DNA from: a virus
Reading direction: 5' to 3' (one strand)
DNA: 34,691 nucleotides
IMG/VR virus record: IMGVR_UViG_3300043436_003650
Location: 1-34,691 of that record
Numbering within the stretch: the stretch's first letter is position 1; the number at the start of each line of letters is the position of its first letter. Below the pieces are notes generated by a model. It had not been told where the DNA came from. It was given only the letters and a program-made list of their open reading frames with translations, and searched no databases. The position numbers and the translations under genes are program-made. This document shows positions 3,156-34,691 of this stretch, in pieces.

Positions 3156-3478
3156 AGAACGAACCCGTCAAGTTTATAATCTACATAGTTGATAAAGTCC
3201 TGAATCCAATTCAATGCCGAATCTTTACTATCTACAACTCCCGTAAAGCTCCCAGCCTTTTGCAACTCGGAAAGAAAAACCGCCTGAAGTTGTCTTGGTT
3301 TTTTCCCTGGTGCTTTAATTTCTGCAAATCCTGCTACTCCCCTATATAGAACTATTCTATCAGGCATGCCCGCTTCAAAAGTCGGCAGCATTTTAAAAGA
3401 CTTCAGCTTTGTTTCTTTGCACATTCTAGCAAAGTACTTCTCAATATAGCTTTCGCTCATAGTATTTTTGTTTGCCAT
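3152..3478 (-). CDS. VRR-NUC domain nuclease
   Basis: A 108-residue stand-alone VRR-NUC protein of the PD-(D/E)XK superfamily. GMPDRIVLY supplies the conserved Asp and AEIKAPGKKPRQLQ supplies the Glu-x-Lys catalytic pair and trailing Gln. The length fits the phage version of the family, which acts on branched DNA. The gene overlaps the end of the primase-helicase gene by 38 bases and the start of the helicase gene by 4, which argues for a shared task. A later Met (residue 7) is possible, but the first keeps an N-terminal helix. Confidence 0.88.
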   Translation of the reverse strand: MANKNTMSESYIEKYFARMCKETKLKSFKMLPTFEAGMPDRIVLYRGVAGFAEIKAPGKKPRQLQAVFLSELQKAGSFTGVVDSKDSALNWIQDFINYVDYKLDGFVL

Positions 3479-5771
3479 AAATTTTGAAATTCGTTGTGCT
3501 CACTTTCGCGGTCCATCCTTGTAGGCTTCGAAGTAAATCATTCACTTCTCTAGTATTGTAGCGCGTCATGTCTTCTTTGTTCTTCCCTAGACACTCACAC
3601 CATACCTCAGCCGTACATGTTACGTCTCTAAGCTCTGTTCCTACGTTTTTAGGATTGTCTAGCCATGCTCTTCTATCATAGATATCTAGATCCGCCCAAT
3701 TTTTAGGAAGTAATCTATCCAAGTATTCTAGAATCATGCCTAAGCGTTCATCTTTTTCGCTGTGAAGCTCTTGAGATATGCGTGCCTGGCTTTCTACTTC
3801 TTTAGATAGGTATAGCGTTTCTCCTGCATTGTAAAGCTCAACTGCTTCAGCCCACAACTGGTCTATCTCAAGTGGCAAATCTCTAAAAACGTCTTTTTTG
3901 ATTTGATGCTGCCCACATAGTATTGGCCAGAATCGGCGGTTGCCTGTTGGGTCCTTCAGAAATTCTAAATTATTGGTAGTCCCCCAACAAGTACACTGTC
4001 TGTAAAACGTCTCAGGGACTCTAGCATAAGCCGGACGATAGTCGTCCTTTTGCTTACTGATAAAATGCTTGATGGCTTCCACTTCAGATTTCTTAAATGC
4101 GGATAATTCCGCTATCTCAATAATCCAAGCGCCCTGAAGTTGCTCAATCGCTTCTTTGCCCTGGACAGTGGAAAAGCTATCCGAGAACCATCCACGGCCC
4201 AAAATGTTTAAAAAGGAAGATTTCTTCATTCCCTGGTCTCCTACTAAAACTAGCATATAGTCAAACTTGCAACCAGGCTCCATGATGCGTGCCACAGATG
4301 CAACCATCATTTTTCGAAATGCTTCTTTTGTGAATTTGTTATCTTCTGCACCAAAATACTCCGATAGTGTGTGCGCGATTCTTTCTTTGCCGTCCCATTT
4401 TAAGCTCTTCAGATAGCTTTTTATAGGGTGAATGGTGTTACGCTCTATTTCTAGGGATAAACTGTCCTCAATCTTACCTGCAGAACAAATATTGTACACC
4501 ATTTCAACATAGTTTCGCACTCCTGAATAGTCCACATTGCGTACCGGTTCCATCTCAGATACTTCTCTCCAAGGAGCTGAACGCAAAATATAGCGTTTGG
4601 CGTCGAAAGTATTGTAGCTAAAAAGGCCTTTTAAATTGGCATCATTTGCAAAAATCAAATTCAAGTTGTGCGCCGTGCTAAGAAAGTTTCCTTTGCGGTC
4701 AATTTCTAATTCAGTCAACCAATCAGTGGACTCTGCAGCTTCGCTAGTTGGAATGCTTGTTTTCTCAGAAGCTAAAGTGAATTTCACTCCCTTATCTTCT
4801 GTGCAGAGTTCTTCCATCCTTTTAAAAGAGGTTAAATCCTGGGCGTTTTTGTCAAGGTGTCCAAATAAATGGATTCGAACTAAGTCAAATGAATTGCAAA
4901 GTCTTCCGCTTGTTGGATCTGTTCCGTGGTGCGAGTAGGACCAAATGTTATCATAGACCATGAGACCCGATGAGGTACTTCCTTTGGCGTATGTATAGCG
5001 GTCTTGTTCAGTTGGTGAATAAAGATCCGGCAAAAACTTCTCAATAGCTTCTGCAATGCCGTAAGTTCTACAGAATGCGCCTACTACTCCTTTTTTCAGA
5101 GCCGGGTCTTCCTGTTTGCTTGCAACTTCGCCAATTTCTTTAACCTTTCCTTTAGCAATAGGCCAAAGGCTAGTGTCCTTCCAGTCAATGTAGGAGTCCA
5201 AAACCTCATCGGCGCTTAAGAATTCTCCATGTTGTTCTTCCCAGTAGTATTCTACATCTTTCGGATGACTAGGCCAGAACATTAATCTGTTCACATCAAA
5301 AGTTGTGGGGTCGAAAAGCTCAATACCTAAATTCCCGGCAACCTTTCTCGAGATGGCTGAATACTCATCTGGACTCACTTCTCTGTCTAGAGGAATAATT
5401 AAGCGATATCTCGGAGCTTCTGGGCTATGTTTGTGCGTAGCATGTAAAAAAGCTGCACAACCATAAAGCATTTCAAAGTCAAAGAAGAAATCCAAATTGG
5501 AAAAATCCAAGTCGAGTGTCAATAACTGACGATGTCCAACAGAATTGATAGTCCTTTTACCGCCAACTAAGTAGCCGCCAACGTAGCCGCCGACATCTTT
5601 AATTTTCCCCTGATCTTCTTTTGAAGCGTTCAGATACTCTTTGAGCGTTTCTGAAGTTTGGACACTCGACTTTAGCTTTTCAGTGAATTGCTCCCATGTC
5701 ATTTGGGTGTTTTTCCACTTCTTAGACGTAGCCGAATATCCAATTGCTATGTCTATAGTTCTCTCTTGCAT
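3441..5771 (-). CDS. PrimPol-VapE primase-helicase
   Basis: A 776-residue replication protein with two halves. Residues 55-200 look like an archaeo-eukaryotic primase core: LLTLDLDF gives the DxD pair (about 87-89), HATHKHSP the His motif, RYRLIIPLDR a following strand and VNRLMFWPS a later motif. A linker with SHHGTDP and CNSFDLVRI (about 280-300) is typical before VapE. Residues 500-620 form the ATPase: GDQGMKKSS Walker A (511-519), IIEIAEL Walker B (550-556), NRRFWPI near 611. It probably primes and unwinds phage DNA for the polymerase encoded upstream. The start at 5771 overlaps a small gene by 19 bases. Confidence 0.9.
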   Translation of the reverse strand: MQERTIDIAIGYSATSKKWKNTQMTWEQFTEKLKSSVQTSETLKEYLNASKEDQGKIKDVGGYVGGYLVGGKRTINSVGHRQLLTLDLDFSNLDFFFDFEMLYGCAAFLHATHKHSPEAPRYRLIIPLDREVSPDEYSAISRKVAGNLGIELFDPTTFDVNRLMFWPSHPKDVEYYWEEQHGEFLSADEVLDSYIDWKDTSLWPIAKGKVKEIGEVASKQEDPALKKGVVGAFCRTYGIAEAIEKFLPDLYSPTEQDRYTYAKGSTSSGLMVYDNIWSYSHHGTDPTSGRLCNSFDLVRIHLFGHLDKNAQDLTSFKRMEELCTEDKGVKFTLASEKTSIPTSEAAESTDWLTELEIDRKGNFLSTAHNLNLIFANDANLKGLFSYNTFDAKRYILRSAPWREVSEMEPVRNVDYSGVRNYVEMVYNICSAGKIEDSLSLEIERNTIHPIKSYLKSLKWDGKERIAHTLSEYFGAEDNKFTKEAFRKMMVASVARIMEPGCKFDYMLVLVGDQGMKKSSFLNILGRGWFSDSFSTVQGKEAIEQLQGAWIIEIAELSAFKKSEVEAIKHFISKQKDDYRPAYARVPETFYRQCTCWGTTNNLEFLKDPTGNRRFWPILCGQHQIKKDVFRDLPLEIDQLWAEAVELYNAGETLYLSKEVESQARISQELHSEKDERLGMILEYLDRLLPKNWADLDIYDRRAWLDNPKNVGTELRDVTCTAEVWCECLGKNKEDMTRYNTREVNDLLRSLQGWTAKVSTTNFKIYGKQKYYERKLY

Positions 5772-5925: not shown

Positions 5926-7848
5926 TTATTTTTGAAAATATTTAACCTCTTCTCCTTTTGCATCCAGTGGAAAACCTTCAGCCCAGGTAGGTAGTTCTTT
6001 CATTAAGTTTTCCAATTCTTCTCGATTCCCGTTTTCAACTACGATTTCATCGTGAATATGCATTATAATTGTGTGTCCTGCTTCATGCACTTTCACAACT
6101 GCTTCAGCCATGAAGTCGCGTGCGACTGCTTGAGTAACATTTTCCGCAATTTTGCCACCGTAGGTATCAACCCAAGTCCATTTGCGAGTCACTGTGTCGG
6201 CCCACATGTATTGAATTGATGGGCGCCCGTATTTATTTGGGGCAATTCTAGCTTTCCAATATGTGAGAGATCTACCTGAAGGCAACTCTATGCGCATGCA
6301 CTTGGTGTCTGTTCTGAACACAAAATGTCCATATTTTACAGCCTTTTTATACTCTATGGACTTTCTAGCTGCATCTTCCATTCCCTGCCAAAATTGAACA
6401 ATAGCGCTGTTGGCTTTTCTCCAAGCTTCAACCGTGCTTTCCATTTCTTGGTGTGAAAGACCTAAATCCGCTCCTAATGCTTCACCCATTTTCTCCAGGG
6501 CTTTTGCTCCGCCCTGGTATCCAAGTGCGAGCTCTGCCACTTTTCCTTTTTGGCGGTCTTTATCAGTCATCGTATCAATAGGAATGTTGAACATCCTAGA
6601 TGCCGATTCTTTGTAAATATCGCGCTTTTCTTTTGAATGGAATAAATCCATTCTCCATTTTTCCTTTGCCAGCCATGCAAGCACTCGCGCTTCAATTGCC
6701 GAGTAGTCGGACAGGGTTAAGTGTGTTGAACCCTTTCCAGGAATAAAAGCCGTTCTTATCAACTGGGATAAAACGTCCTGAATATCTGAGAACAATAAAG
6801 TCAAGGTATCGTAGTCCCCACGCTTAACAACCCTGCGAGCTTCGTCTAGATCCTGCATGTAGTTTCTTGGTAGATTCTGTACCTGGACTAAACGTCCCGC
6901 CCAACGTCCTGTGCGATTAGCGCCGTAGAACTGAAACAGTCCACGGATACGGCCATCATCCATTGCGCATGCCAGCATAGAGTCATACTTTTTAACACTC
7001 GTTTTGCTTAATCGTTTACGAAGGTCCAGTAACTCCATAACTTTGGCATTGTCAAAACTAAGTGTAGCTAGGGCTCCTTTGGCTAGGCTTGTTATCTCTT
7101 CGCCTGTTTGCTCTTCTATCCAATTTCTTAGCTGCAAATTACTGTTAGGGTTACTGAGACCTGTAATTTCTTGAGCACGTTTGTTCATTTGCTCTCGGTC
7201 AATTTCATTAATGTGCAATACTTGCTCAATAAAAAAGAGATCAACCTGAACTCCGTTTTGGTTAATCATCTGATCCACTTCATAAAGCTTCTGCTCAAAG
7301 CTTGTTAGCGGGTTAGACTTTAAAATATTGTAGATTTCCATTTCTGCCACAACGTCTTGGCGGCAATACTCTTTAAATGCTTCCCATTTCTCAGGGTCAT
7401 GATGAGGTAGGTTGCGGGTTCTGCCTCCGTTGGTTTTTGTTGGCTTGACGTCCATACAAAAATAGCGTATCAATGCGGCACCTGCAGCGCTTTTACTTTT
7501 AGAGCCTAGGTCTAAAGCTTCAGACACGTCTTTTAGTGCCATAGGCAGTCCATTGTAACCTGCTAAAACTGCAGTACACACCCACTCATTGCCGACGTTT
7601 AAGCCCATTGCCGAAAGACAAACACGCTCAAAAGTGGCATTGTGTGCCAATTTCTGGACCTTTGGGTCCTCTAAATCCTTTCGAACTTGTTCTGGTAAAT
7701 CTGCCCAGTCGCACACTTCGACAGGACCTCCATACGAATAGGCAATGCAAAGAACCTCAAAGTCGATGGCGTCCGCATATTTGTAGACGCCAGACTTTTT
7801 GAGATCAACTGAGCTATAGGTTTCGATATCTACGTGGAGATGCATCAT
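5926..7848 (-). CDS. Family A DNA polymerase with 3'-5' exonuclease
   Basis: This 640-residue polymerase starts with a DnaQ-like proofreading domain: DIET at 7-10 (Exo I), HNATFE at 69-74 (Exo II), YCRQDVV at 161-167 (Exo III). The polymerase domain shows GANRTGRWAGR (309-319), motif A DYSAIEAR (381-388), motif B RQKGKVAELALGYQGG (432-447) and motif C HDE (599-601). All catalytic acids are present. It lacks the 5'-nuclease domain of bacterial Pol I, as is usual in phages. It should replicate the phage genome together with the PrimPol-VapE protein. The ATG overlaps the previous stop (ATGA); a second Met follows directly. Confidence 0.95.
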   Translation of the reverse strand: MMHLHVDIETYSSVDLKKSGVYKYADAIDFEVLCIAYSYGGPVEVCDWADLPEQVRKDLEDPKVQKLAHNATFERVCLSAMGLNVGNEWVCTAVLAGYNGLPMALKDVSEALDLGSKSKSAAGAALIRYFCMDVKPTKTNGGRTRNLPHHDPEKWEAFKEYCRQDVVAEMEIYNILKSNPLTSFEQKLYEVDQMINQNGVQVDLFFIEQVLHINEIDREQMNKRAQEITGLSNPNSNLQLRNWIEEQTGEEITSLAKGALATLSFDNAKVMELLDLRKRLSKTSVKKYDSMLACAMDDGRIRGLFQFYGANRTGRWAGRLVQVQNLPRNYMQDLDEARRVVKRGDYDTLTLLFSDIQDVLSQLIRTAFIPGKGSTHLTLSDYSAIEARVLAWLAKEKWRMDLFHSKEKRDIYKESASRMFNIPIDTMTDKDRQKGKVAELALGYQGGAKALEKMGEALGADLGLSHQEMESTVEAWRKANSAIVQFWQGMEDAARKSIEYKKAVKYGHFVFRTDTKCMRIELPSGRSLTYWKARIAPNKYGRPSIQYMWADTVTRKWTWVDTYGGKIAENVTQAVARDFMAEAVVKVHEAGHTIIMHIHDEIVVENGNREELENLMKELPTWAEGFPLDAKGEEVKYFQK

Positions 7849-8317: not shown

Positions 8318-8839
8318 TTACAACAAGTCGTCTCCACCAAAGTCCTCTTCAAGTGAGGCTCTTGTGTAAGTGCCTCCTAAAGGCTCGCCATCGCGTGTTT
8401 TTTGCACTGCGTTTAGTGCAACTCCTACTCCTTTGTTACCTGCCTGATTAAAGGCAAAGAAGTTCATGGAGACACGCCCATAGCACCCAGAGTAAACCTC
8501 GCGTGGCGCCATTACTTCTTGGCGGTCCTCATCGACAACGATTGGCGGTTGCAAAGAAGACACATTCATGAAGAAGTGGTTTTCGTACTCCTCAGAGTCC
8601 TTTTCTTCGTCACCGTCTCTCAAAGGTGTTTTCAAACCTTTAGTGCCTTTCAGAATGGTTTGTGACTCATCAATGACGCCTTGGATAGCGTTCTGAATCA
8701 TTTTCACTGTCGCTTTGTCATCTTTGCTGATCAGTATAGTTGTGCTATACTTTGGCTTTTGACCTTCAGTGATTGCTTTTGGTTCAAATAGATTGACATA
8801 GCTCAATCTTACTTCTCCCGTTACTACTTTTTTCGCCAT
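8318..8839 (-). CDS. DUF2815-like single-stranded DNA-binding protein
   Basis: I place the start at the ATG at 8839, giving 173 residues that begin MAKKVVTGEVRLSYVNLFEP; an open frame extends further but only from a TTG. The opening, then KYSTTILISKDDKATVKMIQ, and a C-terminus rich in Gly and Asp (EEDFGGDDLL) match the DUF2815 family, whose members act as ssDNA-binding proteins next to phage DUF2800 and polymerase genes. The acidic tail resembles the interaction tails of SSB proteins. The leader just before the ATG is nearly pure A, as expected for Bacteroidota translation starts. Confidence 0.85.
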   Translation of the reverse strand: MAKKVVTGEVRLSYVNLFEPKAITEGQKPKYSTTILISKDDKATVKMIQNAIQGVIDESQTILKGTKGLKTPLRDGDEEKDSEEYENHFFMNVSSLQPPIVVDEDRQEVMAPREVYSGCYGRVSMNFFAFNQAGNKGVGVALNAVQKTRDGEPLGGTYTRASLEEDFGGDDLL

Positions 8840-8908
8840 TTTTCTTTTTTTTAATGGAGTTAATAAATTATTTGAGTTGTAAATATAGCCTTTATTTTGA
8901 TTAAATGC

Positions 8909-8927
8909 GTAATTTTTCAAAAATTAC
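8909..8927. promoter_or_regulatory. 19-bp perfect palindrome, possible operator
   Basis: GTAATTTTT-C-AAAAATTAC is a perfect inverted repeat of 9-bp arms about one base. It overlaps the stop codon of the DUF2800-like gene and precedes the DUF2815-like start by 70 bases. There is no T run after it, so it is a poor terminator; a protein-binding site or a weak RNA hairpin is more likely. It may separate expression of the two genes. Confidence 0.35.
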
Positions 8928-10102
8928 TGTAAAAAATCATCTGCCGAGTTTAGTTCTGGGCGTTTGTCCGACTCGGGAACTAAAGCGGGTTTGCCTTCAG
9001 GTTTCACAATGACTTCGCCTAAGTATTTGCCCATATTGGCTTTCCCTAGGTTTTTCTCTAAATCGCCTAGGCCTTTAAGCTTGACAATTTTGTTGAGATA
9101 AATTAGCTCATCATAGCCGGCAGTCTGCAAAATGGTCATGGCTTTTTGCTCATCCACTATTTTGCGGTTGCTTCTACCCTCAACAAGTTTGTATCCTGGG
9201 AACTTTTTACCTGCCAAAGCTTCTTTGTAGATGTGGTCCTTCACAGCTTCCAAATAGTTGGTAATGCGATCAGACTTCTCAAATACTTCCAAAAGCTCTA
9301 GATCCGTGCCAGGTTCTTCAGCATTAAAATCCGCTGCAGCGAACTCCAAAGCTTCTTTCTTTAGCGCCGGGCAATGAACTTTTGCTTTGCAGAATCTACA
9401 CCAGTCACCTGGCATGTGCTCACCTTCTCCAGCGTAGGCTAGTTTGGCCTGAGGCTTGACATAGCCCTCAGCCCATTCGATGAGTTCTATTGTTGGAATA
9501 TCCCAAACGCTGACGGCATCTAAGCGCGGCTGAACAATCATCAAACGCACTGTTGTAATGTCATACAAAATGCTATACTTTTCAACTGCCCCAACTGCAT
9601 ATAGTTTCAACTGGCTATTATCTACTGCAGAAACTCGCACACCCTTGCCAAACTTCAAATCGATTACCCACATCAAATCATCAGCAATGATGATGAGGTC
9701 ACATGTTCCAAAGCCGTTTTCAATGTAGACTTCCAAAGATACTTTCTCTTCTATCAGGATCAATGCGTCCGGTGTGGTTGCCCTGGCTTCTGCAATCTGC
9801 TCCAGAACTATTTCAATGTATGGCCCAACTTCAAATTCAATGTCCGTGGTGAACATCGGATGGCGTCGGAGCTCCATTGTTTTTGCATTGAACTCCTTCT
9901 CAGTAATAAAGCCAAGTTTATGTCGAAGAATGTTCTCGGATATCTCATGGGCCAAGGTACCTTCCTCAGCATGCGGAGAAGCTTCTTCCACAATGCCTTC
10001 AGACATTTTTGCGGACGGCGTACAGTTTAGCCACCTTGAAGCCCCAGAAGCAGAGAGAACCGCATGGGCTCTCTCTGAATGGTTTTCTACTTTCTTTGCC
10101 AT
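8924..10102 (-). CDS. DUF2800-like PD-(D/E)XK nuclease
   Basis: This 392-residue protein begins with the family's typical head: HAVLSASGASRWLNCTPSAK and then EEGTLAHEISE. The nuclease core is GFGTCDLIIIADDLMWVIDL, followed directly by KFGKG, giving the Asp and Asp-x-Lys of a PD-(D/E)XK site near residues 135-155. WCRFCKAKVHC at about 235-245 gives clustered cysteines like the iron-sulphur cluster of Cas4/AddB-type nucleases. Such genes normally sit beside DUF2815 and family A polymerase genes, as here. A recombination or replication exonuclease role is likely. Its ATG shares one base with the previous stop (TAATG). Confidence 0.85.
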   Translation of the reverse strand: MAKKVENHSERAHAVLSASGASRWLNCTPSAKMSEGIVEEASPHAEEGTLAHEISENILRHKLGFITEKEFNAKTMELRRHPMFTTDIEFEVGPYIEIVLEQIAEARATTPDALILIEEKVSLEVYIENGFGTCDLIIIADDLMWVIDLKFGKGVRVSAVDNSQLKLYAVGAVEKYSILYDITTVRLMIVQPRLDAVSVWDIPTIELIEWAEGYVKPQAKLAYAGEGEHMPGDWCRFCKAKVHCPALKKEALEFAAADFNAEEPGTDLELLEVFEKSDRITNYLEAVKDHIYKEALAGKKFPGYKLVEGRSNRKIVDEQKAMTILQTAGYDELIYLNKIVKLKGLGDLEKNLGKANMGKYLGEVIVKPEGKPALVPESDKRPELNSADDFLQ

Positions 10103-10590
10103 TACAATGAAGCGATAAAGTCGTGGTATTCGTTGTACTTGTCTTTAGGCAGCGAAGTCACGTTTGCAGCTCCAAACTCTACCAACTTAGCTTTAATGGC
10201 ATTTTTGTGCATCAAAGCTTTTTCAGCTGTCAAAGCTCGAAGCGTAGCTACATTGATTTGCTCCTCTGCCGGTGCTTCCTCTTCTTGTATAGTTGCCGGT
10301 GTAGGACATTGGTCCATTTCTGCTTCAGGTTCTGCTTCAGGTTCTGCTTCAGGTTCTGCTTCAGGTTCTGGAGCTTTAGCTTTACGACTGCGCGTTGCCT
10401 TTTCAGTTACGGTTTTGCTTGGCCCTCCATTCATAGCCTGTTCTACATTAATTTCGAAAGGTTTTGCCGGTTCTGTTCTAAGGTTTTCCACCATAGGAAG
10501 GTCCCCTAGTGTACGCATTAGTCTTTCTAATGCTTCTACGTGCTTGACGTTCGCGACGTCAATTGTTAAACTTACATTCATGATTTTCAT
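10102..10590 (-). CDS. Hypothetical protein with acidic EAEP repeats, 162 aa
   Basis: The first 60 residues (MKIMNVSLTIDVANVKHVEA...) look like a folded beta-alpha unit. A basic stretch with ATRSRKAK follows, then a low-complexity acidic part with four EAEP units made by perfect 12-bp DNA repeats. The last 45 residues (LTAEKALMHKNAIKAKLVEF) look helical, like a small SAP or LEM-type module. The mix suggests a DNA-replication accessory protein with a flexible linker. The start overlaps the HTH gene's stop (ATGA); a second Met four codons on is possible. Confidence 0.7.
   Translation of the reverse strand: MKIMNVSLTIDVANVKHVEALERLMRTLGDLPMVENLRTEPAKPFEINVEQAMNGGPSKTVTEKATRSRKAKAPEPEAEPEAEPEAEPEAEMDQCPTPATIQEEEAPAEEQINVATLRALTAEKALMHKNAIKAKLVEFGAANVTSLPKDKYNEYHDFIASL
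10318..10365. repeat. Four perfect 12-bp tandem repeats (TTCTGCTTCAGG)
   Basis: Four identical copies of TTCTGCTTCAGG follow one another; a partial copy comes after. On the coding (minus) strand they spell EAEP four times. Perfect identity at the DNA level points to recent slippage, so copy number probably differs among related phages and alters linker length without breaking the frame. Confidence 0.9.
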
Positions 10591-10997
10591 GATTTTACGG
10601 ATTTATTGATTACTATTCTATTGATCTCGGTCAGGTAGTCTGACAAAGGTTGGTTAGGAGAGCTCAGTACGTGAGTAGCCAAAAGACTCTCCAAATGATA
10701 AATTTTTGTTATTCCCGTTTGCGGGGAGTAGATGGCGCTGTAGTCATCCAAGGTGAAGCGAAGTAAACCATTCTGGGCTGTCTGCTTCCATTGCATAGAA
10801 TCATAGTAAAGCGCATCTATTGAGAGACCTGTGAACATTGAAAGTCTGTACAACTGTTCCTCATTCATGCTAGACTTTCCACTGGCCATTCTTGAGAGAG
10901 CAGACATTGGATGCTTCGATTTTGGGAACAAAACTTTTGAAAGTTCTTTTTTGTCTAAGTTTCTGATCTCTATCAACTTTTTTAAATTCACGTTCAT
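10587..10997 (-). CDS. Cro/CI-type HTH regulator
   Basis: A 136-residue protein whose first 60 residues fit the XRE helix-turn-helix pattern: LKKLIEIRNLDKKELSKVLF, then SALSRMASGKSSMNEEQLYR as recognition helix and following helix. The C-terminal part (LLRFTLDDYSAIYSPQTG...) looks beta-rich and may be a dimer or sensing domain. It lies in the middle of the leftward unit, not at the divergent promoters, and there is no integrase, so it need not be a lysogeny repressor. It could switch the early unit or bind the repeated AACAATAA elements, but that is inference. Confidence 0.75.
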   Translation of the reverse strand: MNVNLKKLIEIRNLDKKELSKVLFPKSKHPMSALSRMASGKSSMNEEQLYRLSMFTGLSIDALYYDSMQWKQTAQNGLLRFTLDDYSAIYSPQTGITKIYHLESLLATHVLSSPNQPLSDYLTEINRIVINKSVKS

Positions 10998-11019
10998 GTC
11001 AAAACATTTTTAGTTGATA

Positions 11020-11529
11020 CTAATCCTCTAAGCCTTTTTTAAGCGCTAAGACAATGAGGCTATCTGGTTTCAAGTCCATCCCGTCGTCTATGCCTTTGAC
11101 TAGGCACTCAACTACTTCTCTAAGCGCTTTGTATTTTTTGGCTTCAATAGCATTTCTTGCATGTTCGGCCATCTGATCAACTACCTGATCAATCATCTGA
11201 TCAGCTATCTTATCAACCATTTTTTCTTCTAACTCCTTCAGGTTATCTGCAAAACTGGGATTTAGTTTTGTTGCAACTTGCTTTATTTTAAGACCTCTAA
11301 AGTGGTTTTGTTGATCTTTAGCGTAAGCTTTAAAATCTTCAGAACTCATGGATTGCGCAGCTTTATAGGCTTCTGTTACCAAGTTTGCTTCTGTAGTTCT
11401 GATTCTAGACATCCAAACTACCTCCTTTGCAATGCCAAAGCCGTTCATCGGTTTGAACTTACGAACGTAACCCTCCTGTAGTGTGTAGATAGTTTTATCT
11501 TCTATCTGTTCTTCTTGGATTCTGTACAT
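11020..11529 (-). CDS. Hypothetical coiled-coil protein with DQxx repeats, 169 aa
   Basis: The protein opens MYRIQEEQIEDKTIYTLQEG and is mostly helical after residue 60. Residues about 104-122 form a repeat of four-residue units (VDKIADQMIDQVVDQMAEH), produced by a degenerate 12-bp tandem repeat in the DNA. This suggests a helical or amphipathic spacer. The flanking parts show no known motif. It sits between two other unknown early genes with almost no spacing (2 bases to the next upstream gene), so it is part of one operon. Confidence 0.7.
   Translation of the reverse strand: MYRIQEEQIEDKTIYTLQEGYVRKFKPMNGFGIAKEVVWMSRIRTTEANLVTEAYKAAQSMSSEDFKAYAKDQQNHFRGLKIKQVATKLNPSFADNLKELEEKMVDKIADQMIDQVVDQMAEHARNAIEAKKYKALREVVECLVKGIDDGMDLKPDSLIVLALKKGLED
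11171..11218. repeat. Degenerate 12-bp tandem repeat with TGATCA cores
   Basis: Four adjacent 12-base units: ATCTGATCAACT, ACCTGATCAATC, ATCTGATCAGCT, ATCTTATCAACC. Three contain the palindrome TGATCA. They encode the DQ-rich helix of the surrounding gene. This is older and more diverged than the perfect 12-bp repeat at 10318. Confidence 0.8.
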
Positions 11530-11531
11530 GA

Positions 11532-12050
11532 CTATTTAATTTTTTGGCGCAATGCGTCCAGGTTAATACTAAGAGCTGTGTTGGTTGATAGCTTTGGGAG
11601 GTATTCAAACGCTTCCGGAAAATGCTCTTGTACTTTTTTGTAGGTGCGCAAAGTGTCGCACAAAGTCACTTGAATTTCTAACTTCAATTCGTTTACTACT
11701 TTTTCAGCTTTCTTGTAGCTTTTTTCAAGGTCCCAAAGTAATTCTCCTTCTTCTTTTGATAACTTCAAAACATTTTCACAATCTTTAAACGGAATTGATT
11801 CAGGTATGTACACCCATTTGTAATCGAAGCCGTATCCAATTAGTTGAAATTCTCTTCTTGTCACAATATAGTTCTTGTGATGGTCGATTGTTGATGCGTA
11901 AATATTTTGAATTTGTTGTGGAACGCGGTCCCAAGCGATATTCGCTACGGCTTGTTGAAATTTCAACTTCAGGGCTGCTGCTTCTTTAGCCTTTACTTCT
12001 GTCATTGCTTTGGCTGTGTCCTGGGCAATTTGTTTTGTGATTCTAGACAT
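11532..12050 (-). CDS. Hypothetical early protein, 172 aa
   Basis: It begins MSRITKQIAQDTAKAMTEVK with long helical stretches at both ends (KAKEAAALKLKFQQAV and ELLWDLEKSYKKAEKVVNEL), and a more mixed centre with aromatic residues (YIVTRREFQLIGYGFDYKWV). The look is that of a phage early protein that could bind a host partner, without catalytic motifs. It is packed between neighbours with gaps of 2 and 27 bases. Family not recognised. Confidence 0.7.
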   Translation of the reverse strand: MSRITKQIAQDTAKAMTEVKAKEAAALKLKFQQAVANIAWDRVPQQIQNIYASTIDHHKNYIVTRREFQLIGYGFDYKWVYIPESIPFKDCENVLKLSKEEGELLWDLEKSYKKAEKVVNELKLEIQVTLCDTLRTYKKVQEHFPEAFEYLPKLSTNTALSINLDALRQKIK

Positions 12051-12077
12051 TCTATTTAAAATTTAATTGGTTACTAA

Positions 12078-12479
12078 TTAATAGCCGTTAACGATGGCCC
12101 ATTCGTTTCCATTCTCTGGATGATTTTTATTTGCTGTAATGTATTCAGCTGCTTCTGATTTAGTGGTGCCTGTAAACATGACTCCAGTATTGCACTCAAT
12201 GGATTCTATGTATTCCATTTGTTTTTCTGTAGGTTTTTTAGCTACCATTTTAAATCCTTTGTTTGGGTCGAACTGCTCATCGATTAACCTTTGTTTCTTG
12301 GCTCTGTTGTATTTTGACTCTATGAAAATTAGATCGGATACATCTGTCCAAAAGTCTTTGCCAGTTCTTCGTGTTTGAAGCCTAGCGCGTGTGCCTTGTA
12401 TCTCAACAAGTATGAAGCGCATTGCCTTGTCGCTTTGCCATTTTGTGTGGTAGTTACACCCTATTATCAAATTTGCCAT
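12078..12479 (-). CDS. Hypothetical early protein, 133 aa
   Basis: I take the ATG at 12479 (MANLIIGCNYHTKWQSDKAM) rather than a TTG six bases upstream. The first half looks like a small beta domain that reads IGCNYHTKW, FILVEIQGTRARLQ and LQTRRTGKDFWT; the second half (KPTEKQMEYIESI..., KSEAAEYITANK) resembles a short helical module found at protein ends for binding. There is no catalytic signature. It lies between the ParB-like gene and other small early genes, in the same direction. Confidence 0.7.
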   Translation of the reverse strand: MANLIIGCNYHTKWQSDKAMRFILVEIQGTRARLQTRRTGKDFWTDVSDLIFIESKYNRAKKQRLIDEQFDPNKGFKMVAKKPTEKQMEYIESIECNTGVMFTGTTKSEAAEYITANKNHPENGNEWAIVNGY

Positions 12480-12490
12480 GATCAAGTAGT

Positions 12491-13237
12491 TTAGTTGATT
12501 AACACGCGATCTCTCATGCGGTGGTTGATAATGGACTCCATCTCCTGGATGATTGTCTTCACAGATTTCACGTCCTCAATGCGACGGCCCGACTCCTTGA
12601 GCTTCTTAAGCATGAGCTCATGTTCGTACTTGCCCACTGTAAGTAGTTGGATCATGACGTGAAAGAAGCGCGAGCTGTACGGGTTGGAAGTGTATTCGGA
12701 AAAGTCGCGAAGTAATGTGCCCAGGCGATATGACTGGTCTTTGCCCTTAGTGGACAAGGTACCGTCTCTGAAAGCCTCAATGGCCTCGGGTGCAGATGGC
12801 GTACCGGCATGAAACATTTTTATAGCTGTGGCCAAGCTCATGCCAGGGAAAGTATCAATGAAGTCCTGCAGCTCTATGTACGCTTCTTTCTTCAGGTCGA
12901 TATAAGAGTTCATGAAGTCCGAGTTGCGCCACTTGGTATGGTTGCTGTTGATTGTTGGAACGATGCTGAGGTCTGCTTCTTTATGTATAACATAGTAGAC
13001 GTTCGTTCTCAGTTCTCTGGAGACAGCAAATCGATGCTGCCCATCAATGATCTCCATCGCCTCATTGACAATGATTGGCGCGTATCGGAGTACGTCAATG
13101 CCTAGTCGGATAACGTCTTGAATCTTTTGAACTTTGCTCTCATTGATATCGCGGTTTCCTTTCAGGAATTTGAAGCGCCCATAGTCTGTGGTATAGTAAA
13201 TCTTAGTATTGGCTTCGATGTGTTTTAGTTCGCTCAT
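12491..13237 (-). CDS. ParB/Srx-like domain protein
   Basis: A 248-residue protein with a ParB/sulfiredoxin-type N-terminal domain: a strand YAPIIVNEAMEIIDGQHRFA (about 57-76) carries the GxHR signature (here GQHR), and NSNHTKWRNSDFMN follows. The C-terminal half is helical (ATAIKMFHAGTPSAPEAIEA) and could bind DNA. Phage proteins of this kind act as ParB-like CTPases, nucleases or partners of modification enzymes; no ParA is encoded nearby. It is the second gene of the leftward unit, close to the repeat-rich control region, so a role at those sites is conceivable. Base composition here is somewhat more GC-rich than in the neighbours. Confidence 0.8.
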   Translation of the reverse strand: MSELKHIEANTKIYYTTDYGRFKFLKGNRDINESKVQKIQDVIRLGIDVLRYAPIIVNEAMEIIDGQHRFAVSRELRTNVYYVIHKEADLSIVPTINSNHTKWRNSDFMNSYIDLKKEAYIELQDFIDTFPGMSLATAIKMFHAGTPSAPEAIEAFRDGTLSTKGKDQSYRLGTLLRDFSEYTSNPYSSRFFHVMIQLLTVGKYEHELMLKKLKESGRRIEDVKSVKTIIQEMESIINHRMRDRVLIN

Positions 13238-13668
13238 GATGCTCTACGGATAAAAAATTTAGGAATAAAAAATTTCGTTTTAGGTTCGTCCGGGTTGTTG
13301 TGGTCCTGCATAGTGAGACCTAAAGTTTTTGATTTCGGTACCCAACCAATGAAGCGACTGCCGTCCCAATGTTGTACAGATATTTGAAAAGCCTTAAGGG
13401 TTTCTCCTATTATATTGCTTTCCCAAAACACCTGGTGAGTTGCATGCAGTTGGTCCGTCTCTTCTGATTGTCCTATGAAGCGCATAAGAGTTCGATTGGT
13501 TTTTACTAGGATATTCGGATTAGGCTTTCTAACCGGTGCGCCGTACACCAGTCTATGGTCGCAAATTGAAGAATACAAGTCATAGTTGAAATGGCCGCCG
13601 AGATGGCTGTCTGTTCCAGCTTTAGACCACCAGGATCTAGCAACTGCGAAATTGAATTTTTGTGTCAT
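13234..13668 (-). CDS. Hypothetical first gene of the leftward unit, 144 aa
   Basis: It begins MTQKFNFAVARSWWSKAGTD and is rich in His, Trp and Arg, with stretches such as LGGHFNYDLYSSICDHRLVY. No motif is recognised. As the first gene after the leftward promoter it is expected to be expressed at once upon infection. It is coupled to the ParB-like gene by ATGA. Early-first position is typical of host-takeover or anti-defence proteins, but that is only positional inference. Confidence 0.7.
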   Translation of the reverse strand: MTQKFNFAVARSWWSKAGTDSHLGGHFNYDLYSSICDHRLVYGAPVRKPNPNILVKTNRTLMRFIGQSEETDQLHATHQVFWESNIIGETLKAFQISVQHWDGSRFIGWVPKSKTLGLTMQDHNNPDEPKTKFFIPKFFIRRAS

Positions 13669-13696
13669 GTTTATCGTTTTAGCGTTTTTACAGTGT

Positions 13697-13704
13697 CAAA
13701 TGTA
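13697..13704 (-). promoter_or_regulatory. Bacteroidota-type -7 box TACATTTG, leftward
   Basis: Read on the minus strand, TACATTTG fits the TAnnTTTG consensus of the primary sigma factor of Bacteroidota. It lies 28 bases before the first leftward ATG, giving a short leader of about 20 bases. No perfect TTTG upstream box is seen at the expected spacing, so the promoter may depend on an activator, perhaps bound to the AACAATAA elements upstream. Confidence 0.6.
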
Positions 13705-13762
13705 TTACTTATTTTGAATTAAATACACTTTTTTTCAAAAAATTTTTCAAAACGGAAACAAA

Positions 13763-13856
13763 GAAACAATAAAAACAGGTATTGTTTACGTTATTGTTTC
13801 CGCTGAAAGCCTTGTAAACGCTAGGAATTTTTCTATTTGTAAACAATAAACAATAA
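13763..13856. repeat. Left cluster of GTAAACAATAA-type elements
   Basis: Five copies of the element: GAAACAATAA (13763-13772, +), two on the minus strand as an adjoining pair (13781-13800, read GAAACAATAACGTAAACAAT), then GTAAACAATAA (13839-13849, +) and TAAACAATAA (13847-13856, +). The minus-strand pair points toward the leftward promoter. Confidence 0.85.
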
Positions 13857-13883
13857 TTTTCTTATATAACTAAAATATAAATA

Positions 13884-13931
13884 GGGGGTAGTGGTACACA
13901 ATATGCGTATAAACACACACGTACTACCCCC
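13884..13931. repeat. Inverted repeat with G/C-rich 9-bp arms
   Basis: GGGGGTAGT (13884-13892) pairs perfectly with ACTACCCCC (13923-13931) around a 30-base loop that contains ATGCGTATAAACACACACGT. It is the most GC-rich island of an otherwise AT-rich region and lies centrally between the two element clusters. A structural role at an origin, or a bidirectional transcription block, is possible. Confidence 0.6.
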
Positions 13932-13958
13932 CACACGTATAGGGGTTATATAGGAAAT

Positions 13959-14070
13959 TTATTGTTTCTTTGTTTCTAGGGTACCAAAAAAGAAACTAAA
14001 ACCCTTATAGATACTAGCTTTTTAAGCGTAAACAATAACGTAAACAATAAGGGAACAATAAAGGAACAAT
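13959..14070. repeat. Right cluster of GTAAACAATAA-type elements
   Basis: One minus-strand copy (TTATTGTTTC, 13959-13968) is followed by four plus-strand copies in register: GTAAACAATAA at 14028 and 14040, GGAACAATAA at 14052 and GGAACAAT at 14063, so periods of 12, 12 and 11 bases, close to one helical turn. The run ends 17 bases before the upstream TTTG box of the rightward promoter. Confidence 0.9.
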
Positions 14071-14086
14071 GTTTATTTTGCCAACT

Positions 14087-14119
14087 TTTGGTAACATGGT
14101 TGATTTTTAAATACATTTG
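14087..14119 (+). promoter_or_regulatory. Bacteroidota-type promoter, rightward late unit
   Basis: TTTG at 14087-14090 and TACATTTG at 14112-14119, 21 bases apart, match the -33 TTTG and -7 TAnnTTTG boxes of Bacteroidota. Transcription should begin about 4-7 bases after the -7 box, at 14123-14126. The first start codon is at 14126, so the message may have no leader or only a few bases. Four tandem elements lie immediately upstream. Confidence 0.75.
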
Positions 14120-14125
14120 TCATAG

Positions 14126-14551
14126 ATGGAGCTCGATAAATTTTACGGCATCGCAAAAAAGCATCACGGCGATTTGAACAGGGACGTTGTTCATGACTTG
14201 TTTTGTAAATTCGGTTCGGATCTTCCCAGCGATGCTTATCTATCGACTTGCATTCGACACAATAAACCAAAACCGCTTGTAGAAAAATTCGACGTTTCAG
14301 ATTTGTTTCTGGATCAAGAAGACCAGGACGAAAATTTTGAACCGACATTGCGGAAACTTTCACAGGCGGTTAATAACGTTAGGCAAAATTTTGAAATTGA
14401 AGTAGACACATTTTTGGAGTGTCACGTCAATAGCAACTATAAAGCATTTTCCGCAAGTAGTGGAATAGCTAGAAGCGTGTTAGAAAAAATATGTAAATTT
14501 GCTAAGAATGAAATACTTAAAGAGTTTATTAGACTTGAATCATTGGATTGA
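14126..14551 (+). CDS. First late-unit protein, possible sigma-like regulator
   Basis: A 141-residue protein starting MELDKFYGIAKKHHGDLNRD. The N-terminal part (DVVHDLFCKFGSDLPSDAYL) has a loose likeness to sigma-70 region 2 helices (E/D-L-x-Q/H-D-x-F). The C-terminal part (FSASSGIARSVLEKICKFAK) reads like a helix-turn-helix. Short sigma-like proteins are known at the head of late units in other phages. Being the first gene after a strong promoter with operator-like repeats fits a control role. The likeness is weak and I could not test it, so function is tentative. Confidence 0.5.
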   Translation: MELDKFYGIAKKHHGDLNRDVVHDLFCKFGSDLPSDAYLSTCIRHNKPKPLVEKFDVSDLFLDQEDQDENFEPTLRKLSQAVNNVRQNFEIEVDTFLECHVNSNYKAFSASSGIARSVLEKICKFAKNEILKEFIRLESLD

Positions 14552-14780
14552 ATTGCGTTCATTCGATTTCAATCTGGTTTTCATCTTCCTGGTGTTTGTA
14601 ATGGTCTACCGCTGGGGAATCAATAGACTGATCTATTTAAATTGGCCTAAAGCCAAAAGGATCAAATCTATCTACTGTTCGACTTGTTTTGCCTTTTGGC
14701 TTACCTTGTTGCTCTCTACCAATGTATTAACCGCCGCAATGGCATTTTTAATCTATAGTTTCTATGAAAAGAATAACTGA
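14508..14780 (+). CDS. Membrane protein with CxxCxxFW motif, 90 aa
   Basis: I prefer the ATG at 14508 (MKYLKSLLDL) over a TTG nine bases earlier; either overlaps the preceding gene by about 45 bases. A first hydrophobic span (NLVFIFLVFVMVY) is followed by a basic loop, then SIYCSTCFAFWLTLLLS begins a second span and a third hydrophobic stretch follows. The CxxCxxFW motif resembles small membrane proteins of the DUF1360 type. It lies between regulator and terminase genes, an unusual place for lysis proteins. Function unknown. Confidence 0.65.
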   Translation: MKYLKSLLDLNHWIELRSFDFNLVFIFLVFVMVYRWGINRLIYLNWPKAKRIKSIYCSTCFAFWLTLLLSTNVLTAAMAFLIYSFYEKNN

Positions 14781-15351
14781 AATTGAAGCAAGCTTAAAAG
14801 CACTTCAGCCGAAATTGGACATTGACGCCAGAGATTGGACCAAGTCTGAGAAAGAACACATTGAAAAATGTTATCATGCAATTACCAAAGAATCTGTTGG
14901 ATGGGGAAGAACCGTCGATTTAGGTTGTGAGGAGTGTGTGACCTCAGCCGTCAACATCATTAAGAACTACCAAACGGCGGTAGCTTCACAACCAAAAGCA
15001 ATTGAAGTACCTGAATGGGCTGATACTTTGAAAACAATTGCAGCTAAAGCAGAAGAGGTTGGTTATGAGTTTGCAAAAACTTGCAAGTCTAAAGACCAAA
15101 AAATTGAAGCTCTTCAGTCTTACTTGAATGTTTTAGAAGCACAGAAAGAAGAAGCTAACTCTCCAGAAGTAGGACAGGAAGAAGACGAGGATCTACTTGG
15201 CGAGGACTTGACGGCTGCAGATGCAACAACTTCCCCTACACGTGAAGAGCTTGTTGCAACCATTAAAGCGAAAACAGGTGAAGAAGTTCCAGAAGAAACT
15301 TCATTTGAGGACCTTCTTGCATACGTGAACGAACTGGCAGATGGCGAGTAA
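14764..15351 (+). CDS. Hypothetical protein upstream of terminase, 195 aa
   Basis: Begins MKRITEIEASLKALQPKLDI. The middle is helical (KTIAAKAEEVGYEFAKT...), followed by an acidic low-complexity linker with EEDEDLLGEDL. The C-terminal 35 residues (TREELVATIKAKTGEEVPEE) look like a compact helix-extended-loop-helix or SAP-type module often seen in phage DNA-handling proteins. Its start overlaps the membrane gene by 17 bases and its end overlaps the small terminase gene by 11. It may help DNA packaging; the evidence is position and shape only. Confidence 0.65.
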   Translation: MKRITEIEASLKALQPKLDIDARDWTKSEKEHIEKCYHAITKESVGWGRTVDLGCEECVTSAVNIIKNYQTAVASQPKAIEVPEWADTLKTIAAKAEEVGYEFAKTCKSKDQKIEALQSYLNVLEAQKEEANSPEVGQEEDEDLLGEDLTAADATTSPTREELVATIKAKTGEEVPEETSFEDLLAYVNELADGE

Positions 15352-16995: not shown

Positions 16996-17636
16996 CAGAA
17001 GCAAAAATACCAACAAACGCAAAAGGACTACGGATTAAACATTTTGCATCCATGTCCTACGTACCACAGGAAAAGGCCGAGAACGAAAAGGAATTGGACG
17101 AAAGTGAAAGTCTTCTATTTTTGGCAGAGTTCACCGGACTTGGCTACAATAAGATGCTAGACTTCACTGTCAGTGATATTAAGAAAATGACGGCTACAGC
17201 TATGAAAGCATTAGCCACAATGGACTTAGTATCGGAGCTTCCTAAGACAATTAAACTTGGGGGTCAATCTTTTTATCTGGTAGATCCAGAGAAAGTCGGC
17301 ATTGGATGGCACATCGACTTCAAGAAAGCCTCCATTGTGAAAGATCCAATTCGTTTGGCTTGTTTGTTCTACATACCTGAAGGATACAACTATTCAGATG
17401 TTGACGAGAACGGCAATATCAAATTCCCAATTGCTTCCAGATACACTCTATTCAGGGATGAATTCCCTTTGGACCTGTTTATCCGATGCAGCAATTTTTT
17501 TTTGAAACGATCTCTAACCTCAACAAAGAGGTCAATGGTGAGAGAGATCGCAATAAAGAAGAAGACAAACCGAATAAGTTCGGGTCTTCGGGTCCTAAAC
17601 CTTTTGAATGGGAAACGTCTATTGAGGCGGTCATGA
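16992..17636 (+). CDS. Probable tail assembly chaperone, short form (frame 0)
   Basis: The frame gives 214 residues starting MTEAKIPTNAKGLRIKHFAS. The first 170 look like a folded domain (LSESLLFLAEFTGLGYNKM-like helices, then LGGQSFYLVDPEKVGIGWHI). The last 43 codons, after a T9 run at 17495-17503, are strongly basic and look like out-of-frame translation. In the -1 frame an acidic and then well-formed sequence continues. I read the gene as the short product of a -1 frameshift pair, like G and GT of lambda-type phages. An error in the T run is the alternative. Confidence 0.65.
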   Translation: MTEAKIPTNAKGLRIKHFASMSYVPQEKAENEKELDESESLLFLAEFTGLGYNKMLDFTVSDIKKMTATAMKALATMDLVSELPKTIKLGGQSFYLVDPEKVGIGWHIDFKKASIVKDPIRLACLFYIPEGYNYSDVDENGNIKFPIASRYTLFRDEFPLDLFIRCSNFFLKRSLTSTKRSMVREIAIKKKTNRISSGLRVLNLLNGKRLLRRS

Positions 17637-33373: not shown

Positions 33374-33799
33374 ATGAAAACTAAATTGACTCTTCTTCTT
33401 TTCTCCCTTGTTAGCGTACTAGCTCCAATTACGCCGCTCATCTTACTTGCAATCGCTTCAATCATTCTTGACACCTGTTTTGGGATTTGGCGAAGCGTTA
33501 AAAAACAAGGTTGGAAATCAATACGATCTAGAAGGCTATCGCACACCATTTCAAAGACCTTGCTTTATTCGGGTGCTATCACGTTTATTTTTCTACTTGA
33601 AAAATACGTTGTTGCCGATATTCTCGGCCACTTTATTGCTATTGATTTGGTGCTAACAAAGGCGTTCACGTTCTTTTGCGTAGTCACTGAGGTAAAGAGC
33701 ATCAACGAGAGTTATCACAGCGTCACGGGTGTCAATGTATGGGATAAGTTTATCGCATTTGTAAAACGCAGTAAGGAACAATTAGAGGAGCTGAAATGA
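33374..33799 (+). CDS. Holin-like membrane protein
   Basis: 141 residues with several hydrophobic spans: LLLFSLVSVLAPITPLILLA (4-25), then AIASIILDTCFGIWRSV continuing the hairpin, a basic loop (KKQGWKSIRSRRLSH), and LLYSGAITFIFLLEKYVVAD with AFTFFCVVTEV further on. The DxxxGIW-x-basic pattern and the ENY-like ESYHSVTGVNVWDKF end match the phage holin family (toxin secretion/lysis type). It would make holes for the endolysin. ATGA coupling to the spanin gene supports the lysis assignment. Confidence 0.8.
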   Translation: MKTKLTLLLFSLVSVLAPITPLILLAIASIILDTCFGIWRSVKKQGWKSIRSRRLSHTISKTLLYSGAITFIFLLEKYVVADILGHFIAIDLVLTKAFTFFCVVTEVKSINESYHSVTGVNVWDKFIAFVKRSKEQLEELK

Positions 33800-34335
33800 G
33801 ACCTGTACGCGCAACAATAGTTTACTTTCTGATTTACGCCGCATTTGTCATGCTTTGGAGTTTCCTGATGTATGGATGCTCAGCAGAGCGACTACACCAA
33901 AAGGCAGTAAATAAAGGCTACATTCACACTATTCATGTGGATACTTTCAAGGTTGCGAGAGTGGACACCATGTGGAGAGATGGCAAACCATACCCCGTAG
34001 TTACATACAAGGACTCTTTAGTTGTACGCACTGAAATCAAATACGTTCCTAGATGGGTTTATCGGTTCGATAACAAGCGATTTGCGGATAGTTTGGCACA
34101 AATACGTGCAATGTATGAAGCCAAGCTAAAAAACGAGCTTAAAAGGCAAAAAATCAAGTCACATGAAAAAAAGATAGCAACCAAGCAGAAGACCAAGCAA
34201 ACGCAAAGCGAGAATAAAAACGGATTTGCGGATGCAATGAAGTGGGTAGCGTTGTCTATTTTCAGCACCGCTCTGATTCTTTTGCTTATTATTGTTATTC
34301 GAGCAATAAAACGCTACATTGTAATCAATGGCTAA
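33796..34335 (+). CDS. One-piece (unimolecular) spanin candidate
   Basis: 179 residues. The N-terminus (residues 7-27, ATIVYFLIYAAFVMLWSFLM and YG) is a signal-like span ending in LMYGCSAE, with Cys28 as possible lipid attachment. A periplasmic part with beta character (residues 40-95) and a long charged helix (100-145, KLKNELKRQKIKSHEKK) follows, and then a second membrane span at about 149-171 (VALSIFSTALILLLIIVI). Lipid anchor at one end and inner-membrane span at the other is the plan of u-spanins, which fuse the two membranes in the last lysis step. It lies between holin and endolysin. Confidence 0.65.
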   Translation: MRPVRATIVYFLIYAAFVMLWSFLMYGCSAERLHQKAVNKGYIHTIHVDTFKVARVDTMWRDGKPYPVVTYKDSLVVRTEIKYVPRWVYRFDNKRFADSLAQIRAMYEAKLKNELKRQKIKSHEKKIATKQKTKQTQSENKNGFADAMKWVALSIFSTALILLLIIVIRAIKRYIVING

Positions 34336-34348
34336 AATTTTCTAGAAT

Positions 34349-34691
34349 ATGCTTACCACTGCCCAAATAGAAAAAAAATATGGAGTAGCAGATCCGAAAG
34401 GCGGTTATCTGAAAACCATTGATTTGCCCTATCCTATGCGACTTGCTTGGGATACTAAAACTGTAGTCAAAAAGATGAGATGCCATAAATTAGTGGCCGA
34501 TGCCTTTTTGGCTGTTTTTAATGAATTACTAGAGGCCTATGGCCATGAAGAAATAGTAAAACTTGGCATTGACCTTTTTGGAGGCTGTTTTGAGTACCGC
34601 AAAATGAGAGGAGGGTCTAATATCAGTAGACATTCCTGGGGAATTGCTATTGATTTAGACCCTTCTAGAAATTTGCTGAAAGAAACAGCAA
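34349..34691 (+). CDS. M15-type endolysin, N-terminal part (cut by window end)
   Basis: The ATG at 34349 begins MLTTAQIEKKYG and the frame runs off the end after 114 codons. The last 42 of these are the same codons seen at the left edge, so the full protein is 154 residues. The N-terminal third (to about residue 70) shows no cell-wall-binding repeat, so this is a bare catalytic domain, as is usual for phages of Gram-negative hosts. It follows the spanin gene by 13 bases and closes the holin-spanin-endolysin cassette. Confidence 0.9.
   Translation, partial: MLTTAQIEKKYGVADPKGGYLKTIDLPYPMRLAWDTKTVVKKMRCHKLVADAFLAVFNELLEAYGHEEIVKLGIDLFGGCFEYRKMRGGSNISRHSWGIAIDLDPSRNLLKETA
34565..34691. repeat. 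127-bp exact direct terminal repeat (right copy)
   Basis: Second copy of bases 1-127. Together the copies show circular closure, or a circularly permuted genome. It lies wholly inside the endolysin gene, which is an unlikely place for a natural packaging repeat. Confidence 0.95.

Follow-up and report, generated by a model that had tools for sequence, protein, structure and literature searches.

The repeat array between two divergent operons

The window (i.e. the whole stretch of viral DNA analysed, a record of 34,691 bp) carries a 127-bp direct terminal repeat (positions 1-127 and 34565-34691) and is therefore very likely a complete circular assembly. No close DNA relative of it was found among 50,697 phage records. 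Its replication genes are directed leftward and encode a VapE-type primase-helicase (3441-5771), a family A DNA polymerase (5926-7848) and a DUF2800 exonuclease (8924-10102); the packaging and structural genes constitute a rightward block. These two blocks are separated by a 457-bp gap (13669-14125), which holds 12 repeats with an AACAA core, located between positions 13755 and 14072.

The sequence GTAAACAATAA occurs in this gap three times exactly, six times with no more than one mismatch and ten times with no more than two. Dinucleotide shuffling of the 457-bp gap (1000 rounds) gave mean numbers of 0.01, 0.11 and 1.2, respectively, and none of the shuffled sequences (0/1000) reached the observed number at any level. 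The array reported in a preliminary description of this DNA is thus real, and the count of about ten copies given there is about right. It is also the strongest short-repeat cluster of the window, the runner-up (near position 10301) being located within coding sequence.

The array begins with an outer plus-strand pair, GAAACAA AG AAACAATAA (13755-13772), likewise present in two related phages, L008 and G001 (see below). It is followed by a minus-strand pair (13780-13790 and 13792-13802), with a period of 12 as in L008 and G001, which represents the first "aa" pair of the origin signature considered below; the preliminary description had recognised this pair and its 12-base period, but placed it at 13781-13800. 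The adjacent 36-bp spacer (13803-13838) is conserved in length and lacks a shared sequence motif: a search of it revealed nothing beyond the level of shuffles, and an ACGCTAG match between the window and L008 is local. An inner plus-strand iteron pair (the "bb" pair; 13839-13856, period 7) and an inner minus-strand iteron pair (the second "aa" pair; 13958-13976, period 8) enclose a repeat-free core of 101 bp (13857-13957), a candidate melting site with an AT content of 64% (genome, approximately 59%) and a G5/C6 palindrome. These inner pairs, the most important part of the array, had not been singled out previously, even though the repeats themselves had been seen. Beyond a further gap of 51 bp, four plus-strand repeats (14028-14072), also present in four copies in L008, lie directly upstream of the rightward promoter. 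They start at positions 14028, 14040, 14051 and 14062, so that the four copies stand as described earlier, but with periods of 12-11-11 instead of 12-12-11.

The core also contains a long imperfect palindrome (arms GGGGGTAGT and ACTACCCCC), which is absent from the cores of the relatives. Its DNA fold gave a weak z score (-2.4), and it was set aside as a candidate functional structure.

The array is flanked on both sides by -7 boxes of the Bacteroidota type, whose consensus is TAnnTTTG; 52 such boxes occur across the window. The rightward box (TACATTTG, 14112-14119, plus strand) lies 6 bp before the ATG of the late operon (14126), and L008 and G001 have a similar box in the corresponding position, while the box of the leftward (replication) operon (TACATTTG, 13697-13704, minus strand) lies 28 bp before the ATG at 13668. 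The distance from the nearest repeat end to the -7 box is approximately 75 bp on the left and 40 bp on the right; a previous estimate of 60-77 bases therefore holds only roughly. In all three phages the late -7 box is situated merely 4-6 bp before the start codon (window, 14112-14126; L008, 4218-4230; L027, the G001 contig, 6987-7001), and the transcript would therefore be nearly leaderless. The GC-skew plot proposed in the preliminary description placed the cumulative minimum at position 11864, about 2 kb off the array. Since the skew tracks gene direction and its minimum does not coincide with the array, it was dropped as evidence for an origin.

A common geometry in VapE-encoding phages

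Absence of the element from related phages had been named as an observation that would speak against its significance. The array is present, with drifted repeats, in both L008 (terminase 73% identical) and L027/G001 (terminase 63% and VapE 74% identical), in each case at the same place, upstream of the relative of the gene at 14126. The repeat has changed to TCGAAACAA(A/T)/GTAAACAAG in these phages, and the order of the pairs and their spacings (12, 48-49, 8, 97-103 and 8) have been kept. Such a combination of drifting letters and fixed geometry is expected where a site evolves together with the protein that reads it. The outer plus-strand array beside the late promoter is conserved in the window and L008, and reduced in G001. 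A more distant relative, Croceibacter phage P2559Y (L045; VapE 58% identical), contains 15 AACAAT copies upstream of its terminase gene, arranged as a GTAAACAAT array; another, weaker array precedes its early operon. Both G001 and P2559Y possess the VapE protein, the polymerase and the exonuclease; the L008 contig stops short of that region. The P2559Y genome additionally carries a tRNA-like sequence (approximately 17290-17400), upstream of the DNA polymerase gene, which is not annotated in the record.

VapE matches are present in 1040 named-phage records. We compared phages of Bacteroidota, Firmicutes and Corynebacterium whose VapE proteins are 34-93% identical, and most of those examined contain an array with other repeat letters and a like geometry, usually just 3' of vapE. 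In ten IMG/VR relatives (L035-L044, VapE approximately 44% identical) a short-repeat cluster coincides with the 3' end of vapE in 10/10 cases; the repeat varies among the phages and is ATGGATAC, GTGTTACA, GTGTGACA or AAAGTTAC. An array also occupies the gap 3' of vapE in Staphylococcus phage phi7401PVL, Paenibacillus phage TonyLawson77, Corynebacterium phage Dina and Bacteroides phage F2 (z 20-41 versus shuffles). In the window, the array is 8 kb distant from vapE, which ends at 3441 (minus strand), and no array is present at that end.

The geometry common to these arrays consists of a close pair, 43-49 bp, a second close pair, a core of approximately 100-113 bp and an inverted close pair. The start-to-start distance across the core is 113 in the window, 97-103 in L008 and G001, 103 in P2559Y, 102 in F2, 104 in phi7401PVL, 103 in L036, 105 in L037 and 109 in Dina, and the gap preceding the core pair is 43-49 in most arrays. 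Of 17 arrays tested, 11 conform to a signature of the form pair, 40-52 bp, pair, 95-115 bp, inverted repeat; for each of these, p is about 0.01 (0.007-0.02) when an equal number of sites is placed at random. The six arrays lacking it are those of L037, L039, phi7401PVL, Blautia, Erysipelothrix phage phi1605 and Javan630; of these, L037 and phi7401PVL retain a core of approximately 100 bp.

A motif-free geometry detector, whose settings were picked after several arrays had been seen, gave position 13841 as its sole match in the window and matched the arrays of most VapE phages, with 0 matches in five phages lacking a VapE match and 0 in 25 shuffles (stricter setting). It missed the array of Dina and some others, and produced one match within coding sequence of the GC-rich Dina genome. 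No clear array was found beside vapE in PM708P2 and Blautia NatCom_24097 (in PM708P2 none anywhere by the tests used), and the array near vapE is absent or weak in SJC12, BX788P2, BV741P1, EMB1 and PM708P2, with EMB1 likely having a weak array before a packaging gene. Among streptococcal satellite phages, Javan608 has the layout of pair, core and inverted pair, with a core of approximately 83 bp. The four-site detector was silent beside the rep gene of Javan127 and Javan312, although Javan312 does have a repeat array.

In four Bacteroidota phages with co-directional operons twin arrays are located near the heads of the early and late operons, about half a genome apart. They were identified in SJC12 (L059; 20450-20800 and 37900-38190, the second recognised by eye), BX788P2 (L060; 13000-13230 and 32120-32350), BV741P1 (L062; 20984-21310 and 38355-38655, both recognised by eye) and P2559Y (14250-14490 and 33500-33830). 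The window has a single array, which faces both operon heads. The BX788P2 record also contains a run of N (7464-7563) between the copies of a duplicated stretch, probably an assembly gap.

Candidate readers of the repeats

The preliminary description listed four potential binders of the element, i.e. the products of the genes at 10587, 12491, 14126 and 24146, none of which is the best candidate. Judging from the sequence comparisons, the most likely binder is a protein missing from that list, namely the VapE-type (PriRep/VapE) primase-helicase (3441-5771, minus strand), which we propose as the initiator. This protein matches PF05272 (E 6.6e-84), and its nearest solved relative is PriRep1 with dsDNA (7pds, E 6.4e-76; top structural match, Z 13.2). 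The structural model is good only for residues of approximately 670-776 (pLDDT of about 80) and poor for the remainder; it is this C-terminal domain that is proposed to read the repeats. A search for VapE relatives in genome contigs found none.

The VapE proteins of L036 and L037 are 100% identical in the N-terminal and helicase parts. Their C-terminal parts are 85% identical, most of the differences falling within the final 30 residues, and the repeat switches from ATGGATAC in L036 to GTGTTACA in L037. Hitch-hiking could explain this link, because the VapE tail and the array adjoin in these genomes. In L042 and L043 the helicase and C-terminal parts of VapE have been replaced, and so has the repeat. 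The window, G001 and P2559Y, in which the array is unlinked to vapE, have in common both the C-terminal end of VapE (YG-Q-YY-R) and the repeat GTAAACAA. The L042 and L043 proteins (10001-12367 and 8393-10759, respectively) are chimeras, approximately 92% identical to the L035 type in the primase part, with an unrelated-looking helicase/C-terminal part.

It may also be considered that the array is not an origin, but an operator array for a regulator (the HTH protein encoded at 10587, or VapE itself) that switches the leftward replication and rightward structural operons. The array does lie between two Bacteroidota-type promoters, with the right repeats ending approximately 40 bp before the -7 box, and two arrays, one near each operon head, are found in the four phages with co-directional operons. 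Moreover, all genomes carrying the AAACAA repeat (L008, G001 and P2559Y) encode a relative of the HTH protein (10587-10997, minus strand; weak HTH_3 match), and in P2559Y this relative (14577-14987) is encoded by the first gene after the second array. However, the geometry is also present in F2, SJC12 and BX788P2, which lack the HTH protein; this protein may be regarded as a rival or additional binder. The co-variation of the repeat with the VapE tail argues against an operator as well, as does the occurrence of the same geometry inside operons, 3' of vapE, with no operon head nearby (Gram-positive phages and Bacteroides F2). The latter observation also speaks against the "two-way switch" that had been suggested as the main function. 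Finally, the arrangement of a pair, 100 bp and an inverted pair is the layout of PICI origins (PMC6092414). We therefore regard a purely regulatory array as unlikely.

Even less probable is that the array serves the ParB-like protein encoded at 12491 as a partition (parS-like) or incompatibility site. The gene of this protein is located two genes off on the leftward operon, and partition sites typically contain clustered repeats, but no relative of the protein was detected in P2559Y, which has nearly the same repeat, or by tblastn in G001, both of which carry the array; conversely, L004 and L005 encode a ParB-like protein 70% identical to it and have no such array. We attach the least weight of all to a DnaA-dependent origin, to which the DnaA-C-like protein encoded at 24146 might point. 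The array contains no DnaA box (the single pattern match in the whole window is at position 32700), and a relative of this protein was likewise neither detected in P2559Y nor matched by tblastn in G001.

The remaining candidate, the product of the first rightward gene (14126-14551, plus strand), has no detected relative in P2559Y. By eye it has the look of a small sigma factor, with a region-2-like stretch (DVVHDLF..AYLSTCIRHN) and a C-terminal helix-turn-helix. Its model is of low confidence (pLDDT 58), and the Foldseek list is rich in region 4 of ECF sigma factors, with non-significant E values of 2-5; it is possible that this protein is a late transcription factor. No relatives of it were found in genome contigs, and a search of viral contigs for more relatives of this and the HTH protein returned only the two contigs already known.

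A predicted replication origin and its possible second role

Taken at the level of sequence and geometry, the array most probably represents the DNA replication origin of the phage, read by its own VapE primase-helicase. The PICI/SaPI-type geometry and its recurrence in VapE-encoding phages support the earlier suggestion of an iteron origin on which one protein loads at helical spacing. According to the proposed mechanism, VapE would bind the repeats via its C-terminal domain, with several monomers lining up next to one another, and two oppositely facing helicase assemblies would be positioned by the two inverted pairs that enclose the 101-bp core. By analogy with the PICI/SaPI Rep proteins, these assemblies would open the intervening core and be loaded onto its strands, and the N-terminal primase part, together with the family A DNA polymerase, would then begin bidirectional synthesis.

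Because the array sits between the divergent replication and structural operons, occupancy of the outer repeats by the initiator could influence both promoters as well. It is possible, though we hold it with considerable reserve, that the site is a VapE-bound origin through whose outer repeats VapE or the HTH protein would also regulate both operons, thus coupling replication to the early/late switch; this is a stronger form of the origin reading, and the likelihoods of the two overlap. The twin arrays at operon heads of four Bacteroidota phages, as well as the outer plus-strand array beside the late promoter (conserved in the window and L008), are consistent with such a dual role. On the other hand, position is the sole argument for it: origins are commonly located in intergenic gaps, large gaps occur at operon heads in any case, and twin arrays could simply be two origins. 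Somewhat more tentatively still, we suggest that in Bacteroidota phages of this kind a PICI-type origin may have been relocated to operon heads, where it doubles as a control site: the initiator on the outer repeats would set the early and late promoters, making origin firing and the switch one event, and phages with co-directional operons would keep two sites, one per operon.

The repeat layout discussed here has been reported from phage satellite origins and was claimed to exist nowhere else; we found no earlier description of it in VapE-type tailed phages in open-access papers. Like the PICI/SaPI origins (Rep/PriRep), the array of the window comprises two sets of short iterons around an AT-rich stretch (at 64% AT, slightly richer than the genome), an element-specific repeat, and a cognate SF3-type primase-helicase (a Rep/PriRep-type initiator) encoded by the same element. 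It differs from them in residing in a whole phage instead of a satellite, in its position between divergent operons, in its core of approximately 100-113 bp and in the extra array by the late promoter. The location immediately 3' of the initiator gene, another feature of PICI origins, is found in F2, TonyLawson77, Dina, phi7401PVL and L035-L044, but not in the window. Since the array is not beside the initiator gene and belongs to a whole phage, it would be better classed, on present sequence comparisons, as a variant resembling the PICI origins than as a member of this group.

Other known systems are less similar. Lambda iterons are located inside the O gene, and O recruits the host DnaB; ori-lambda shares with the window the presence of iterons and an AT-rich stretch in a phage genome, whereas in the window the proposed initiator is a helicase in its own right, and the repeats are shorter, with an inverted arrangement about the core. 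The iterons of plasmids of the RepA/RepE type are approximately 17-22 bp long and form one direct array; initiator-bound iterons beside an AT-rich stretch are a common feature (the binding being predicted for the window), in contrast to the 7-12 bp spacing and inverted pairs seen here. The C-terminal domain of SaPI Rep binds iterons (PMC7581432), and the helicase acting at the SCCmec Cch2 origin also binds direct repeats through such a domain, as is predicted for the window, but that origin has only three 5-nt iterons, located downstream of the operon, and uses a separate polymerase-primase (PMC7581432).

The occurrence of this layout in ordinary tailed phages with VapE-type initiators, infecting hosts of three phyla, links the replication of satellites with that of whole phages, and predicted origins are now available for many phages previously without one. 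With natural pairs such as L036/L037, the recognition code of VapE-type helicases becomes directly testable, and the twin arrays at operon heads offer a testable link between replication origins and gene control.
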